Source: Akkermansiaceae bacterium (GTDB lineage Bacteria > Verrucomicrobiota > Verrucomicrobiia > Verrucomicrobiales > Akkermansiaceae). From it: a stretch of DNA of 36,395 bases. A model generated the notes under the pieces. That model saw nothing but the letters and a program-made list of their open reading frames with translations. It had not been told where the DNA came from and ran no database searches. The stretch spans positions 1 through 36,395 of the forward strand of contig JAQWSX010000062.1 of assembly GCA_029242935.1 (NCBI GenBank), given 5' to 3'. How positions within the stretch are numbered: the first letter of the stretch is position 1; the number at the start of each line of letters is the position of its first letter. Of this stretch, positions 10,724 through 36,395 are shown one piece after another. The position numbers and the translations under genes were made by a program.

Positions 10724-12121
10724 ATGATCGACACGACAAACAGACGAACCTTTCTAAATCAAGCTACGGTAGGAATCGGGGCGCTCGCGTTTCAGCGTCA
10801 GCTTTTTGCCGAGGGGATTCCGGAAGATATCAAGATGGCGGGGAATCCTAAGGCCAAGCGTGTCATTTTCCTCTGCATGGCGGGTGGGCCATCCCATCTT
10901 GAGACGCTCGATCACAAGCCGACTCTTGCTAAGATGCATGGTCAGCCCATGCCTGAATCGATTACCAAAGGGCAGCCAATCGCTCAGTTGCAGGGCAAGG
11001 CTTTGAAGTGTCTTGGTCCACAATGGGACTTTATTAAGCACGGTCAGTCGGGGCAGGAGATTTCCTCGCAGCTTCCGTTTATCGGGAAAATGGCGGACGA
11101 CATCGCGATTGTAAGATCGATGACGACGAAGCAGATCAATCACGATCCAGCTCATACTTTTATGAATTCCGGGACTCAGATTTCTGGTCGTCCGTGTATG
11201 GGTTCATGGATTCAATACGGCCTCGGTAGCGAGACTAAAGATCTTCCTGGATTCGTTGTTCTGACCTCCGTGGGCGGTGGCCAGAGCCAGCCTATCGCCT
11301 CACGTCAGTGGCACAGCGGGTTTTTGCCAAGCAAATATCAAGGAGTTCATTTTCACTCCAAAGGAGATCCGGTGCTCTATGTTGGCAACCCAAAGGGAGT
11401 GGGCCGTGCAGATCAACGCGAAGTGATTGATGCTGTAAAAGGCTTAAATTCGATCCGTAACGGCCTCGCTGATGATCCTGAAATTGCGACTAAAATTGCG
11501 CAATATGAAATGGCATTTCGAATGCAGGCGAGTGTGCCGGAGTTGGTCGATTTAAAAGGGGAGTCAAAGGATACTCTTGAAATGTATGGCGCGAAACCCG
11601 GCGATGGTTCTTTTGCGAGTAACTGTTTGCTGGCCCGACGTCTTGCGGAACGTGGAGTGCGTTTTATTCAGTTGTACCATCGTGGATGGGATCACCATGG
11701 TGGCGTGAAGAATGGAGTGGCAGGGACCGCGAAATTGGTGGATCGCGCGAGCTGGGCTCTCGTGCAGGATTTAAAACAACGGGGAATGCTCGATGATACC
11801 TTGGTGATTTGGGGCGGGGAGTTTGGCCGCACGCCGATGTCACAAGGAGGCGGCAACAATCCAGGCCGAGATCATCACATTAAGGGCTTTTCCCTCTGGA
11901 TGGCCGGAGGTGGAATCAAAGGGGGGGTGACCCATGGAGCTACTGATGACTTCGGCTATAACGCGGTCGAAGATGTGGTTACAGTGCATGATCTACATGC
12001 CACAATGCTCCATCAGCTGGGAATTGATCATCAGAAGTTCAGCTATAAGTTTCAGGGGTTGGATATGCGTCTCACTGGTGTCGAACCAGGCGTGAAAGTC
12101 ATTAAGAATATTTTGACTTAG
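10724..12121 (+). CDS. DUF1501 family exported protein (sulfatase-like fold)
   Basis: A 465-residue protein with a twin-arginine-type signal (NRRTFLNQATVGIGALAF), so it is probably exported folded. DUF1501 hallmarks are FLCMAGGPSHLETLDHKP near residue 50, DHHGGVKNG, IWGGEFGRTP, GRDHH and the C-terminal KFQGLDMRLTGVEP. The fold is related to alkaline phosphatase and sulfatase enzymes, but the reaction is not established. It is the partner of the PSCyt1-DUF1549-DUF1553 gene 5 bases upstream. It is much closer in sequence to the DUF1501 gene at the right end of the window than to the one at 20249, as shown by shared stretches such as KGQPIAQLQG and QPIASRQW. Confidence 0.92.
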   Translation: MIDTTNRRTFLNQATVGIGALAFQRQLFAEGIPEDIKMAGNPKAKRVIFLCMAGGPSHLETLDHKPTLAKMHGQPMPESITKGQPIAQLQGKALKCLGPQWDFIKHGQSGQEISSQLPFIGKMADDIAIVRSMTTKQINHDPAHTFMNSGTQISGRPCMGSWIQYGLGSETKDLPGFVVLTSVGGGQSQPIASRQWHSGFLPSKYQGVHFHSKGDPVLYVGNPKGVGRADQREVIDAVKGLNSIRNGLADDPEIATKIAQYEMAFRMQASVPELVDLKGESKDTLEMYGAKPGDGSFASNCLLARRLAERGVRFIQLYHRGWDHHGGVKNGVAGTAKLVDRASWALVQDLKQRGMLDDTLVIWGGEFGRTPMSQGGGNNPGRDHHIKGFSLWMAGGGIKGGVTHGATDDFGYNAVEDVVTVHDLHATMLHQLGIDHQKFSYKFQGLDMRLTGVEPGVKVIKNILT

Positions 12122-20248: not shown

Positions 20249-21697
20249 ATGAATCCACAGCTAGAAAGCCTCCAATACAAAACGCGGCGGCACTTTTTCA
20301 AACAATGCTCCATGGGGCTTGGCGGGGTCGCACTTAGCGAGATGCTCGCGACCGATGCGATGGGTCTGGAAGCCCCGGATAATCCTCTCCTGCCCAAACT
20401 TCCGCACTTCGCACCCAAGGCAAAGCGCGTGATCTACCTTCACCTCACCGGATCACCGCCCCATCTCGATATGTGGGATCACAAGCCCGAGCTCGTAAAA
20501 CGCGACGGCCAGGAATGCCCGGACGAATACATCAAGGGAAAGAAGTTTGCTTTCACCTCAGGCACCCCCAAGCTCATGGGGAGCCCTCGCACTTTCAAGC
20601 AGTATGGCAAGAACGGGCTCTGGATGTCTGACGCCATTCCGCACCTGCACGGCGTGGCTGATGATCTCTGCATCATCAACTCGATGACCACTGATCATTT
20701 TAATCACGCTCCCGCCGAGCTTTTTGTGCACACTGGTTTCCAGCAACCGGGTCGACCCACCTTTGGGGCTTGGACCACTTACGGGCTGGGTTCGGAAAAC
20801 CAAAACCTGCCCGGATACGTGGTCCTGATCTCGAGTGGAGTGCAACCGAATGGCGGGAAGAGTTCCTTCGGTTCGGGGTTTATTCCATCTGTCCATCAAG
20901 GCGTGCAGTGTCGTTCAAAAGGAGATCCTGTTCTTTATGTCAGTGACCCTCCGGGCATGGATCGTAGCCTGCGTCGCTCCAGCCTTGATGCTCTCCGTGA
21001 TCTCAATGAGGCCGCTTCCAAAGATTTTGCCCATCCTGAAACCCTTACCCGGATGGCGCAATATGAGCTTGCGTTCCGTATGCAAATGTCAGTCCCCGAG
21101 GTCATGGATATTTCTAAGGAATCGAAGACGACCCTCGAATCCTACGGCGCGCAACCCGGTGCCTCGAGCTTCGCCAACAACTGCCTTCTCGCGCGACGCC
21201 TCGCCGAAGATGGCGTCCGTTTCGTTCAGCTCTTTGACTGGGGCTGGGACTTCCACGGCACCAACCCCAAGGAAGACATCCGCGATGGACTCACCAACAA
21301 ATGCGCCACCATGGATAAACCCATCGCGGCCTTGATCAATGACCTCAAGGAGCGTGGACTTTTTGAAGACACCCTTATTATTCTCGGCGGAGAATTTGGG
21401 CGAACTCCCTTCCGTGAAGGCCGGACGGCCAAAGGCAAGGTCCTAGGCCGCGATCACTTTCCTGATTGTTACACCATGGTCATGGCTGGTGGGGGAGTGA
21501 AAGGGGGATACACCCACGGTGCCTCTGATGATCTCGGTTTTTCGGTGGCCCGCGACAAAGTCCACGTCCATGATTTACAGGCAACTTGGATGCATCTCCT
21601 TGGATTTGACCACGAAAAGCTCACCTACCGCTTTCAGGGCCGTGATTACCGCCTCACTGATGTTCATGGTAAGATCGTGAAAGATCTTTTGGCCTAG
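20249..21697 (+). CDS. DUF1501 family exported protein (second copy)
   Basis: A 482-residue DUF1501 protein with a twin-arginine-like signal (KTRRHFFKQCSMGLGGVAL). Family blocks are YLHLTGSPPHLDMWDHKP, FNHAPAELF, DWGWDFHG, ILGGEFGRTPF, GRDHFPDCY and FQGRDYRLTD. Compared with the copies at 10724 and at the right end, it belongs to a different subgroup: PPHLDMW in place of GPSHLET, and DFHG in place of DHHG. It is the partner of the PSCyt1-DUF1549-DUF1553 gene upstream and lies 71 bases before the TGA-interrupted thioredoxin-like gene on the same strand, so readthrough transcription into that gene is possible. The reaction is not known. Confidence 0.92.
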   Translation: MNPQLESLQYKTRRHFFKQCSMGLGGVALSEMLATDAMGLEAPDNPLLPKLPHFAPKAKRVIYLHLTGSPPHLDMWDHKPELVKRDGQECPDEYIKGKKFAFTSGTPKLMGSPRTFKQYGKNGLWMSDAIPHLHGVADDLCIINSMTTDHFNHAPAELFVHTGFQQPGRPTFGAWTTYGLGSENQNLPGYVVLISSGVQPNGGKSSFGSGFIPSVHQGVQCRSKGDPVLYVSDPPGMDRSLRRSSLDALRDLNEAASKDFAHPETLTRMAQYELAFRMQMSVPEVMDISKESKTTLESYGAQPGASSFANNCLLARRLAEDGVRFVQLFDWGWDFHGTNPKEDIRDGLTNKCATMDKPIAALINDLKERGLFEDTLIILGGEFGRTPFREGRTAKGKVLGRDHFPDCYTMVMAGGGVKGGYTHGASDDLGFSVARDKVHVHDLQATWMHLLGFDHEKLTYRFQGRDYRLTDVHGKIVKDLLA

Positions 21698-21768
21698 GGT
21701 GAAGGGGCTGAATCGGAGTCGTGTGGCATTGGCTTGCCATGAAGATCCTACTCGCTAGTGTTTTCACG

Positions 21769-22164
21769 ATGAAAAAACCAATCGCCTGGATGGTCGCAGC
21801 TATCGCGCCCATTCTCCTAATGAATACTGCTTCCGCAGACGAGCCCAAGGCTCCTGTGGCGAAAGCTACCGCCGAGGCCAAGATTCCTATGCTCACCTAT
21901 TATTATTTCGACGGATGACCGCTTTGTGCAAAAATTTCGGTCATCGTGAATGATCTCAAAAAGACAAAGGGAAAAGAAATCACCTTCAAGAACGTCCTCG
22001 TCGGAACTGGCAAGAGCAAAGAAGAAATCAAAAAGGCCAAGCTCAAGGGCCATGGTATCATCGCCAAGGACAAGAGCGGTAAGCTCGTCGATACGATCGA
22101 AGGCCACACTTATGGCAAAAAAGAAGTCGAGGCCGTCGTCGCCAAGCTCCTCGCCAAAAAGTAG
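21769..22164 (+). CDS. Candidate secreted thioredoxin-like selenoprotein (UxxC), read through in-frame TGA
   Basis: One continuous reading frame of 132 codons is broken only by a TGA at 21916-21918. Decoded as selenocysteine it gives a 131-residue protein: a signal peptide (MKKPIAWMVAAIAPILLMNTASA), a short linker, the strand MLTYYYFDG, then U50-P-L-C53 at the start of a helix, and alternating strands and helices to the end, as in thioredoxin-like folds. U50 and C53 would be the only Sec and Cys in the protein, forming a redox pair. No cis-proline is seen where thioredoxins have one. The 81 codons after the TGA remain clearly coding, ending at TAG before a terminator. A SECIS-like hairpin follows the TGA. 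The start is uncertain: in-frame ATG 21739 and GTG 21721 are alternatives and none has a good ribosome-binding site. The other explanation is a recent nonsense mutation of a Cys codon. Confidence 0.8.
21914..21945 (+). repeat. 8-bp perfect inverted repeat spanning the in-frame TGA
   Basis: GATGACCG at 21914-21921 is the exact reverse complement of CGGTCATC at 21938-21945, with a 16-base loop in which TTT and AAA could pair around GTGC. The TGA itself lies in the left arm. This fold shares bases 21939-21945 with the SECIS-like fold, so the two cannot form together. Confidence 0.65.
21916..21971 (+). promoter_or_regulatory. Candidate bacterial SECIS element
   Basis: Starting directly after the UGA, the RNA can fold as a long hairpin. 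The basal stem pairs 21919-21920 and 21922-21927 with 21964-21971 (8 bp, one bulged G at 21921). A 3-bp UUU/AAA stem pairs 21935-21937 with 21958-21960. The apical stem GGUCAU/AUGAUC pairs 21939-21944 with 21950-21955 (6 bp, one G-U pair), closing the loop CGUGA. There are 26 bases between the UGA and the loop, and G is the second loop base followed by U, as expected for elements bound by SelB. The fold is by eye, without an energy calculation. Confidence 0.65.
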
Positions 22165-22189
22165 CCCGCCTTTAACTATTTCATATCTT

Positions 22190-22220
22190 AAAAAACCGGG
22201 GGAATTCTTCCGGTTTTTTT
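22190..22220 (+). terminator. Rho-independent terminator after the selenoprotein candidate
   Basis: A hairpin with stem CCGGGGG/CUUCCGG (two G-U pairs) and an AAUU loop is flanked by six A on the left and seven T on the right. It lies 26 bases after the TAG at 22162-22164. The A/T flanks make it usable from both strands, though the minus-strand PBP gene runs away from it only after its own stop at 22312. Confidence 0.9.
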
Positions 22221-22311
22221 GGTGGGGATTTTTAGTTAGCACACCGGAACCAAAAGGGCGGGTGGTAAATCGGAATTTAAAGAGGATGCCAAAATTCACC
22301 TTTGGGTGATT

Positions 22312-23931
22312 TCAGCGAGCGATTCGCTGAAGGTCTGCTTTCAACCTCTGTGATTCCCGGGCACTTAAATTAAAGGGTTTGGGATTATCGAAGCCGATCC
22401 AGACAACAATCACTTGCTCCGGGCTCAGAGTGGCAGCCCAATGATCGGTGCCGGGAAGAGATAATCCGCTGATGAAATCAGGGATTTCTTTCAATTGGGA
22501 ATGATCAGCGAATGCGGGGAAAGAGGCGGCGGGGCGCGAGAAAAGGGTCCTTTCTTTTTGGATCAGTTCGCGAACGAAGACCGGAGTGGGGCGCGAGCCA
22601 TTTTGGAGAAGGGTGGCATAAGCAGTGGCCAACTCGAGAGGCGAGACACTGAGTGTTCCTCGGTAAAGATCTTCGCCCTCTCCAAAAGTGCCCTCAAATC
22701 CAAACCGTTTGAGCAGTTGGATGGCGTCTTGGGCCTGAAGTTGACGGCCAGTCGCGACTGGGTTTCCGTCAATTGGCAAATGTCCGCGTTCTAGGGCAAT
22801 GGTGCCGATCAGGGGCTCAATCATGAGCGGGCCAAGGTCGCGATACGAATCAAGGGCCCGGTTGAAGCCAGTGGGTTTTTTTTCACGGCATCCAACTACG
22901 CCAAGAAGGTCTCCGTTACGGGGATCGATGGCAATCGAAGCCATTTGGCATCCTTTTGGAATCGAGGTTTCTTGAACGAGTTTCTCAAGTTTTCGTTGAA
23001 GTTTAAAATCGATCGAAGTGATGACCTCTAGGCCGCCAGTTGTGATCTGTGCTTCGTTAAGAACGATTTCGAGAGGGCGCCGCAGCACGCGCGTTCCGTG
23101 GTCGGTTTCGAGGTCTCCGGCATTGGGATTACGGAGATCGAGAGTTTGGGATTTGATCGCATCAGCTTGTTCTGGGGTGATCACTTCGGTCGTGATGAGC
23201 CGGGCGAGGACTTCATCACGCTGGCGGACTGCTCCCTCGAGATTGCGCCACGGACTGCAGGCGTGTGGGGCTCTGATAATCCCGACGAGGAGGGCGCATT
23301 GGCCTTTCGTGAGTCTGGAGGTAGGGCGGCCAAAATAGTTGAGGGAGGCTTCCTCGATGCCATTGAAGCCGGAGCCAAAATAGATCCGATTGAGATAGGC
23401 AGTGAGAATTTCTGATTTTGAGAATTTTGATTCGATGCGGTAAGTGATCGCAATTTCGAGGAACTTCCGGTTGAGGGATTTCTTCTCACGTAAATCGAAG
23501 GTGTTGCGTGCCAGTTGCATCGACAGGGTGGAAGCGCCTTGGGTGAAGTCGAGGTCTTTGGCATTCCTTAAGGTCGCACGGGCTAGGCCCCAGAAATCGA
23601 CACCTTCGTGCTCCATGAAGCGGGCGTCTTCCCGGGCAAAAAGGCAAATTTTCAGGAAAGTGGGAATTTCATCGTAATCAACAAGGCGGCGATTGGCTCC
23701 GTGGATCGTGCCGATTTCAATTCCATTACGATCAAGCAAGACAGTGCGCTCAGGCATCCGGGAGGTTTCGGAGAGGTCGAACTTACTGGCATGCCAAGCA
23801 TACCAACCGATCATTAAGAGGAGCGGAATGAGCAGGGTGAGACCGCCTTTCCAGGTAAATTCCCATAAGCGTTTTAGGATTTTCACCCATTTGCTCCAGC
23901 GCTGTTGACGATTTTGGTGACTCAAGTTCAT
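22312..23931 (-). CDS. GT51 peptidoglycan glycosyltransferase / class A PBP with degenerate transpeptidase domain
   Basis: A 539-residue inner-membrane protein with a basic cytosolic tail and one membrane helix (about 31-48). The GT51 glycosyltransferase domain, which polymerises lipid II into glycan strands, is intact: AREDARFMEHEGVD with catalytic E101, QGASTLSMQLARN (131-143) and RKFLEI with the second acidic residue. The C-terminal part aligns with a PBP transpeptidase domain (IDPRNGDLLGVVG, FNRALDSYRDLGP, VSPLELATAYATLLQNG). However, the active-site SxxK is replaced by GPLMIEP (366-372), no SxN is found, and the KTG box reads LPGTDHW (491-497). The protein is shorter than bifunctional PBPs. 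I infer a monofunctional polymerase with a dead transpeptidase-like domain. It is the last gene of the minus-strand operon, 12 bases after the preceding gene. Confidence 0.88.
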   Translation of the reverse strand: MNLSHQNRQQRWSKWVKILKRLWEFTWKGGLTLLIPLLLMIGWYAWHASKFDLSETSRMPERTVLLDRNGIEIGTIHGANRRLVDYDEIPTFLKICLFAREDARFMEHEGVDFWGLARATLRNAKDLDFTQGASTLSMQLARNTFDLREKKSLNRKFLEIAITYRIESKFSKSEILTAYLNRIYFGSGFNGIEEASLNYFGRPTSRLTKGQCALLVGIIRAPHACSPWRNLEGAVRQRDEVLARLITTEVITPEQADAIKSQTLDLRNPNAGDLETDHGTRVLRRPLEIVLNEAQITTGGLEVITSIDFKLQRKLEKLVQETSIPKGCQMASIAIDPRNGDLLGVVGCREKKPTGFNRALDSYRDLGPLMIEPLIGTIALERGHLPIDGNPVATGRQLQAQDAIQLLKRFGFEGTFGEGEDLYRGTLSVSPLELATAYATLLQNGSRPTPVFVRELIQKERTLFSRPAASFPAFADHSQLKEIPDFISGLSLPGTDHWAATLSPEQVIVVWIGFDNPKPFNLSARESQRLKADLQRIAR

Positions 23932-35009: not shown

Positions 35010-36395
35010 TTAGGAGAGGATTTCTTTGATCACTTTTGAGGGTTCAACACCGGTAAGACGCATGTCGAGGCCCTGGAACTTTTTGGAGAAGCGGTGGTGG
35101 TCGATTCCTAACAAGTAAAGAAGGGTGGCGTGAAAGTCGCGAACGTGGACTACGTCTTTGGCAGCGTTATAACCAAGTTCGTCGGTTTCGCCGTAGCTCA
35201 TGCCTGGTTTAACTCCACCTCCCGCCATCCACATTGAGAAACCTTTGATGTGGTGGTCGCGTCCCGCTCCTCCCTTGCCTTGGAACATAGGGGTACGGCC
35301 GAATTCTCCACCCCAGACGACGAGAGTATCCTCCAATAAGCCGCGCTGTTTGAGGTCAGTGAGGAGGGCCCAAGTGGGTTGGTCGGTGAGCTTGCTGCAG
35401 ATGCCCATGTATTTTTCGAGGCCGCCGTGGTGGTCCCAACCGCGATGGTAAAGTTGAACGAAGCGGGTTCCTTTTTCGATGAGGCGCCGAGCCAGAAGGC
35501 AGTTGGAGGCATAAGACCCGTCCCCGGGCTTGGCGCCGTACATGTCTAGAGTCTTTTGAGATTCGCGAGAGAGGTCGGTGAGCTCAGGGACCGAGGCCTG
35601 CATTTTGAAGGCCATTTCGTAGGCGCTGATACGGGTTGCGATTTCAGGGTCGTCGACGAGTTCGTTGCGCTGGGAGTCGAGCTTCTGAATAGTTTTTATG
35701 AGCGCGTTCTGATGCTGTCGATCCACTCCATTTGGATTCGTAACGTAGTGGACGGGGTCGCCGGTGGAATTGAATTCGACCCCCTGAAATCGAGAGGGGA
35801 GGAAGCCAGATCCCCACTGGCGAGAGGCGATTGGCTGGGGGTTACGTCCGCCGACGGAGGTGAGGACGACAAAGCCGGGGAGGTTTTCGGACTCAGATCC
35901 AAGGCCGTAGTTGATCCAGGAACCCATCGAGGGGCGACCGCTGATGGCGGTGCCTGTATTCATAAAAGTATGAGCGGGGTCGTGGTTGATTTGCTCGGTG
36001 ACCATGGATCGGAGGACGGTGATATCGTCTGCCATCTTCTGGTGGTAGGGAAGGAAGTCGGAGATGTATTGGCCGGAGTTCCCGTATTTTTTGAACTTGG
36101 TGAGGTGGCCTTGGACCTTAAGAGCTTGTCCTTGGAGTTGTGCGATGGGCTGCCCCTTGGTGAAGGATTCCGGCATGGCCTTCCCGTTAAGCTTATCAAG
36201 TTGTGGTTTGTAGTCGAAAGTCTCGAGATGAGATGGTCCACCTGCCATGCAGAGAAAGATGACGCGTTTTGCTTTGGCCGTGTGGTGCGGGAAGCCGGAT
36301 AAGCCGGGGTATTTTCCAACGAGACCCTCTGCGCGAGTGAGCTGAGAAAGGAGGGCTGCGGAGCCGAAGGAAAGTCCAGTGTTGTTGAGGAAAGT
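35010..36395 (-). CDS. DUF1501 family exported protein (partial, 5' end beyond window)
   Basis: 461 codons of a DUF1501 gene whose start lies outside the right edge. Reading in frame from the edge, the first residues TFLNNTGLSFGSAALLSQL are the hydrophobic part of a twin-arginine signal, as in the copy at 10724, so only about 10 residues are missing. The ATG at 36248 is internal to the conserved block FLCMAGGPSHLETFDYKP and is not the start. Other blocks are NHDPAHTFMN, QPIASRQW, HRGWDHHGG, VWGGEFGRTPM, GRDHHIKGFS and FQGLDMRLTGVEP. It is the close relative of the 10724 copy. By analogy a PSCyt1-DUF1549-DUF1553 gene is expected just upstream, outside the window. Confidence 0.92.
   Translation of the reverse strand, partial: TFLNNTGLSFGSAALLSQLTRAEGLVGKYPGLSGFPHHTAKAKRVIFLCMAGGPSHLETFDYKPQLDKLNGKAMPESFTKGQPIAQLQGQALKVQGHLTKFKKYGNSGQYISDFLPYHQKMADDITVLRSMVTEQINHDPAHTFMNTGTAISGRPSMGSWINYGLGSESENLPGFVVLTSVGGRNPQPIASRQWGSGFLPSRFQGVEFNSTGDPVHYVTNPNGVDRQHQNALIKTIQKLDSQRNELVDDPEIATRISAYEMAFKMQASVPELTDLSRESQKTLDMYGAKPGDGSYASNCLLARRLIEKGTRFVQLYHRGWDHHGGLEKYMGICSKLTDQPTWALLTDLKQRGLLEDTLVVWGGEFGRTPMFQGKGGAGRDHHIKGFSMWMAGGGVKPGMSYGETDELGYNAAKDVVHVRDFHATLLYLLGIDHHRFSKKFQGLDMRLTGVEPSKVIKEILS

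Follow-up and report, generated by a model that had tools for sequence, protein, structure and literature searches.

A probable exported thioredoxin-fold selenoprotein of the Verrucomicrobiales with a UxxC active site

The window analysed here, a 36,395-nucleotide stretch of DNA from an Akkermansiaceae bacterium, contains a reading frame that is broken by one TGA, and the question is whether this codon ends a gene or is read as selenocysteine (Sec). The frame lies on the forward strand, as do all features of the gene described below, and extends over positions 21769-22164. It encodes 131 residues and a final TAG, with the TGA at 21916-21918 as codon 50 (context YYYFDG-U-PLCAKI). The original prediction had described exactly such a frame, open except for one TGA and continuing for 81 codons to a terminator, and both parts were confirmed: we counted 81 sense codons after the TGA, followed at about 22190-22219 by an intrinsic-terminator-like hairpin with a U-run (-16.6 kcal/mol, z -3.75, equalled by none of 200 shuffles), which was absent from the output of a simple terminator scan. 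Sec50 and Cys53 (21925-21927) are indeed the sole Sec and Cys residues, but the claim that they are the only residues with selenium or sulfur does not hold, as the protein also contains methionines. According to our analysis, the gene very probably encodes a small exported thioredoxin-fold selenoprotein, a Sec50-Cys53 oxidoreductase whose UGA is decoded by SelB via a downstream RNA element.

It had been anticipated that standard gene calling would overlook such a gene, and it is missing from a mechanical list of open reading frames of at least 80 residues, which shows at this site an antisense frame (21817-22299, 160 residues) and one in another frame (21950-22309, 119 residues). The N-terminus, judged by eye, is probably a signal peptide (21769-21837) that ends in ASA before DEP. 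Inspection by eye revealed no clear Shine-Dalgarno sequence upstream of 21769. A further in-frame ATG lies upstream of the proposed start, at 21739, and is not common to all members of the family.

Homologues were sought first among genomes related to the source assembly (3.16 Mb, 219 contigs, 85.5% complete). Matches were found in 24 of 97 relatives, 23 of which hold 24 genes, one genome having two. Each of these 24 genes has exactly one TGA within the match, always at the same codon, and no other stop in the matched frame, while the remaining genome, G073, carries a distant form without a stop. G019 harbors two gene copies (L018, L041), which may represent two strains, its reported contamination being 6%. 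Within a collection of 84,980 named genomes, 37 loci encode a relative and all 37 have TGA at the codon-50 site; the peptide patterns used for this search sit downstream of residue 50 and thus did not select for TGA. All but one of these loci are named Akkermansiaceae, Verrucomicrobiaceae, Verrucomicrobiales, Roseibacillus or Verrucomicrobia/Verrucomicrobiota, the exception (L075) being named only 'Bacterium'. The two sets overlap and together yield 37 distinct 81-nt cores. A wider search gave a match in 2 of 384 genomes of the class and in 1 of 387 genomes of the phylum, both samples including the source genome, and no relatives were found among viral contigs. The homologue comparison proposed with the original prediction thus came out in its favor, with TGA at the site in 24/24 and 37/37 cases and Cys in its place in a distant clade.

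The most divergent of 23 diverse members still shares 44% identity with the window protein. Y45, Y46, G49, U50, C53, K55, V58, I59, V60, S83, H95, G96, G104, G112, H113, G116 and V123 are invariant in this set. The active sites of the family are of the types UPLC, UPMC or UVLC. In 55 pairs from 11 close members of the 37, dN/dS was 0.070 before the TGA (12 codons), 0.059 over codons 1-32 after it and 0.057 over codons 33-77. Purifying selection acts on the read-through part of the frame, with dN/dS near 0.06.

Cysteine-containing relatives were sought by using the stop-free form of G073 as query against 189 genomes of the order. Seventeen genomes gave matches, and four of them, all from the genus g28, encode stop-free proteins (L121-L124) with the motif CFLC, in which the His-Gly pair and His113 are kept. 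Eleven others have a weak TGA-bearing match, and the remaining two are G054 and G522, the latter with a TAA. In a profile alignment the Cys forms match the Sec family with 98.8% probability (E 1.4e-16, 20% identity), placing U50 on C49 and C53 on C52. All four share an invariant N-terminal cysteine that looks like a lipoprotein site. One of these genomes, G501, carries a weak TGA-bearing relative (G501:C587:216-575) besides its Cys form (L122). A close Cys form was not found in the 189 genomes of the order, the 97 relatives or the named collection.

The genetic machinery for Sec insertion, whose presence had been proposed as a check, was recovered for selA, selB and selD and not for selC. In the source genome, selA (480.8 bits) is over its cut-off, selB scores 312.5 bits (cut-off 242.25), and selD scores 384.5 bits with one TGA inside. 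This selD (L102, contig C149:64500-66300) has its TGA at the UxxK position, and the RNA beyond it folds with a GU-containing loop; by eye, 15 of 17 selD loci show a hairpin with GU in the loop after the TGA. Sec-containing SelD is listed among verified selenoproteins in the available text of PMC13188914. No tRNA-Sec over the cut-off was found in the source genome, at 85.5% completeness, although the near relatives G016 and G019 have one (ARAGORN anticodon TCA; Rfam 54.4 bits). The 2.1-kb tRNA-Sec region of G016 has no match in the source genome, an empty result that by itself is no proof of absence, whereas 1094 bases of it are 89.6% identical in G019, and the missing selC is therefore probably an assembly gap. 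Apart from its full selA match, G016 has at another place a selA-like fragment whose frame is interrupted by a TAG (G016:C205:5063-5431).

Across the 97 genomes, all family genomes but one carry selA (22 of 23), compared with 31 of the 74 remaining ones (Fisher p 2e-6), a co-occurrence that is confounded by ancestry since a single genus accounts for 19 of these 23. Outside that genus, selA is present in all four family genomes and in 28 of the 70 genomes overall. A tRNA-Sec scoring at least 50.8 bits, our own threshold applied to 39 scored candidates per genome, is present in 17/23 family genomes and 31/74 others. It was not seen at this threshold in six of the 23, two of which (G026, G091) are at least 95% complete. 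The selB search covered the source genome.

Decoding of UGA as Sec by SelB would call on a signal in the mRNA, and the nucleotide sequence just after the TGA probably carries one. Codons +8 to +11 (V-I-V-N, GTC ATC GTG AAT, 21940-21951) are nearly frozen synonymously across the 37 sequences, with synonymous differences of 0.05, 0.11, 0.11 and 0.00, the lowest of any four-codon window, compared with a mean of 0.49 over 85 codon columns elsewhere. Columns were taken without gaps; by eye, L100 lacks one codon further downstream. The frozen segment therefore marks an RNA element, and its presence just after the UGA is well supported. Directly 5' of the TGA, GGA is found in 35/37 sequences.

The most likely SelB-directing element is an apical hairpin at 21939-21955 (GGUCAU-CGUGA-AUGAYC) with a 6-bp stem and the 5-nt loop CGUGA, although a second hairpin, which encloses the UGA (21914-21945) and excludes the first, also fits. 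In the apical hairpin the loop GU is invariant and G stands at loop position 2 in 37/37; over its six stem pairs, 97.3% of the cells are paired, and the outermost pair holds in 32/37. The bacterial SECIS (bSECIS) model, as given in the available text of PMC13188914, has a loop of 3-9 nt, a stem of 4-16 bp, a distance of 16-37 nt from the UGA, a G within the first two loop positions, with G or U as a frequent next base, and an energy of at most -7.5 kcal/mol. With its 5-nt loop and a spacing of 26 nt between UGA and loop, the apical hairpin lies within this geometry. When 60 nt starting at the UGA are folded, the energy limit is reached in 35/37 sequences, and for the 23-nt hairpin alone in 2/37; a rival fold exists. 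Of the two, the apical hairpin is the one that includes the frozen third positions, +32 in its loop and +35 in its stem.

The UGA-containing hairpin is paired in 92.7% of cells, one pair failing in 14/37. Changes on both sides of a pair favor it slightly, as they occur in five cells (12 of 500 shuffles as high) versus one cell for the apical hairpin (89 of 500). RNAalifold picks the UGA-containing hairpin, and this is also the predicted fold of the window's own sequence once bases before the UGA are included. When 15 nt before the UGA are folded along, 18 of the 37 sequences adopt the UGA hairpin, 16 the apical one and three neither, and for folds starting at the UGA the numbers are six, 30 and one. 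Forcing the apical hairpin costs energy in seven of the 37, at most 7.8 kcal/mol (L025). A lower stem around the apical hairpin is possible (21919-21927 with 21964-21971; 67.9% of cells paired), with no clear excess over shuffles. The RNA stretch of the window has only modest stability (z -1.28, equalled by 17 of 200 shuffles), and an Rfam search of 21000-22600 returned nothing at E<=1.

Three other readings of the TGA were weighed against Sec. Where an assembly is fragmented, one in-frame stop could be a disabling mutation or a misread TGC, TGT or TGG, and the original prediction had named such an error as a finding that would speak against it. Since 37 distinct sequences from many assemblies carry the same TGA, a sequencing error is untenable, and with the downstream frame under purifying selection and none of the 24 genes showing another stop in its matched frame, we see virtually no chance that the gene is a disabled copy. 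As DNA gives the position and not the residue, UGA could also be read as another amino acid through an altered code or a suppressor. This is extremely unlikely, given that six of 24 picked long frames in the window terminate with TGA, as do the Sec-type members L035 and L036 and the Cys form L040, that Sec machinery is present and that homologues have Cys at the site. It was conservation, selection and the use of stops that led us to set aside a pseudogene, a sequencing error and an altered code. Decoding of UGA as Sec competes with termination, and the UGA itself can sit within a hairpin. One may thus posit a regulated stop, at which translation yields mainly a 49-residue exported peptide and, as a conditional minority product that senses selenium, the full-length Sec protein. 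By eye, about half of those 49 residues would be signal peptide, and conserved residues are found on both sides of the UGA; we consider this scenario very unlikely.

With the TGA taken as a Sec codon, the encoded protein is predicted to adopt a thioredoxin fold. AlphaFold, run on the family's own 24-row alignment, gave block means of 92-96 for residues 41-130, residues 5-35 staying below 50, with the order beta-alpha-beta-alpha-beta-beta-alpha. U50 is placed just before the first helix (residues 51-67), and thioredoxins are the top Foldseek matches (best E 2.8e-5). This agrees with the proposal that the TGA occupies the place of the first Cys of a thioredoxin-like CxxC. At the sequence level the relationship is faint. 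The window protein is under every Pfam and NCBIfam cut-off, reaching 14.4 bits for PF00085 (cut-off 23.5; best E among other members 0.0029) and 20.4 bits for TrxA NF047697 (cut-off 140; best E among the other 23 members 3.2e-6). The cis-proline at the start of strand 3 is not present. A profile alignment with a designed thioredoxin, as we read it, puts Gly96 at the place of this proline and His95 immediately before it (22051-22056), and this Gly is invariant in the 23 diverse members. The second invariant histidine, His113 (22105-22107), lies in the predicted structure in a loop before the last helix.

The genomic context of the gene adds little on function. Its neighbors in the window encode DUF1501 and PSCyt1/PSCyt2/PSD1 proteins and a transglycosylase, and the setting beside PSCyt1/DUF1501 genes had been thought notable. 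Three DUF1501 genes lie in the 36-kb window (10724-12121, 20249-21697 and 35010-36248), and we give this neighborhood no weight because the source genome has 44 DUF1501 matches. DUF1501-type genes flank ten of the 37 named loci as well as the window gene, seven by shared synteny and three (L085, L091, L096) in another orientation; many loci have other neighbors, and the flanks are short in several. Close to the selenoprotein gene at L083, L089, L090, L092 and L101 there is a large open reading frame in which a CxxCH-like haem motif can be made out by eye.

Taken together, the computed support for our reading consists of the conservation of the TGA, the selection acting on the read-through frame, the constraint on the RNA that follows the UGA, the Sec machinery and the thioredoxin fold, and from these we infer the actual insertion of Sec, the hairpin used by SelB, export, redox direction and substrate. 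We posit that SelB, together with Sec-tRNA-Sec, would read the UGA at 21916-21918 as selenocysteine, directed by the RNA element just downstream within the coding sequence, most likely the hairpin at 21939-21955. In the mature protein the Sec50-x-x-Cys53 pair would then sit just ahead of helix 1. The protein most likely acts outside the cytoplasm, where an oxidised substrate such as a disulfide may be attacked by Sec50 and the intermediate resolved by Cys53. From its fold and its UxxC motif, the protein is most likely an extracytoplasmic selenol/thiol-disulfide oxidoreductase.

The replacement of the cis-proline by His95-Gly96, along with His113, points away from the usual work of a thioredoxin and suggests a specialised substrate or a metal site. 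The protein might instead bind metal through Sec50, Cys53, His95 and His113, as a metallochaperone or sensor, and not serve as a disulfide oxidoreductase. In favor of this role are the invariant His-Gly that replaces the cis-proline and the other invariant His, features that the four Cys homologues retain as well; we regard it as possible, though the less probable function. More speculatively still, this could be a near-obligate selenoprotein family of the Verrucomicrobiales in which Sec is no mere upgrade of a common Cys enzyme and the loss of the cis-proline has enabled an extracytoplasmic selenolate/thiolate/imidazole metal site formed by Sec50, Cys53, His95 and His113, a proposal that we would call doubtful at present. 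The missing cis-proline and the two invariant histidines lead to a testable prediction, namely metal binding by the selenol/thiol site.

Relative to Pfam, NCBIfam and the literature checked, the family looks new and unnamed, the main doubt coming from groups of the GOS survey that were compared by description only. None of the rows in Table 1 of a 2026 review (119 families and subfamilies; PMC13188914, in its available part) describes the family or fits it by motif and model. Among the literature matches listed, no paper was on selenoproteins of Verrucomicrobiota by its title or the start of its abstract; PMC4807772, as far as available, concerns Planctomycetes, and the accessible text of PMC5029168 gave no lead on the family. 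The GOS survey, in the portion available (PMC2398784), reports a 'Trx-like 3' group of 212 UxxC selenoproteins, only weakly similar to cd02950, beside 183 Cys homologues, and 15 'unknown' selenoproteins without Cys homologues. The family might already have been seen in one of these two groups, and some record names among the collection loci, as we read them, suggest marine sources. Against this, none of 24 members matches the GOS_C model NF045500 at E<=1, and the 2026 table has no fitting row by motif and model; we therefore hold such an identity to be unlikely. Our analysis thus adds an apparently unnamed selenoprotein family in Verrucomicrobiota, and its 37 distinct UGA contexts with their frozen segment offer a natural series for testing which hairpin SelB uses.

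Compared with known systems, the family resembles bacterial thioredoxins, including Sec-containing ones (PF00085, UxxC), in its fold and in the active pair just before helix 1, and thioredoxins lead both its Foldseek and its profile matches. It differs from them in that the window protein is below the PF00085 cut-off, has a probable signal peptide and Gly96 at the place of the cis-proline, and in its UPLC, UPMC or UVLC-type site. SaoT (NF040730) is likewise a UxxC thioredoxin-like selenoprotein, with faint similarity to six of 24 members (best E 0.0042), whereas the window protein has no match to it at E<=1. GOS_C (NF045500), the HUIPC-motif Trx-like family (NF047660) and TsoX (NF045809) are further listed selenoprotein families with UxxC; the first two give no match at E<=1 in 24 members and TsoX matches one of the 24 (E 0.0083). 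The DF family (NF049942), also a listed selenoprotein family, has matches in six of 24 members (best E 0.016). From Sco copper proteins the family is set apart by its spacing, UxxC, the SCO1-type proteins having CxxxC according to the available text of PMC2757866. The GOS 'Trx-like 3' group, compared by its description in the accessible part of PMC2398784, comes from a marine survey, shares with our family the UxxC motif and the thioredoxin-like character, and differs in its many Cys forms, no close Cys form having been found here. The Cys-form relatives of g28, finally, have Cys instead of Sec and an apparent lipoprotein N-terminus, but their CFLC aligns with UPLC, and the His-Gly pair and His113 are shared with the Sec family.
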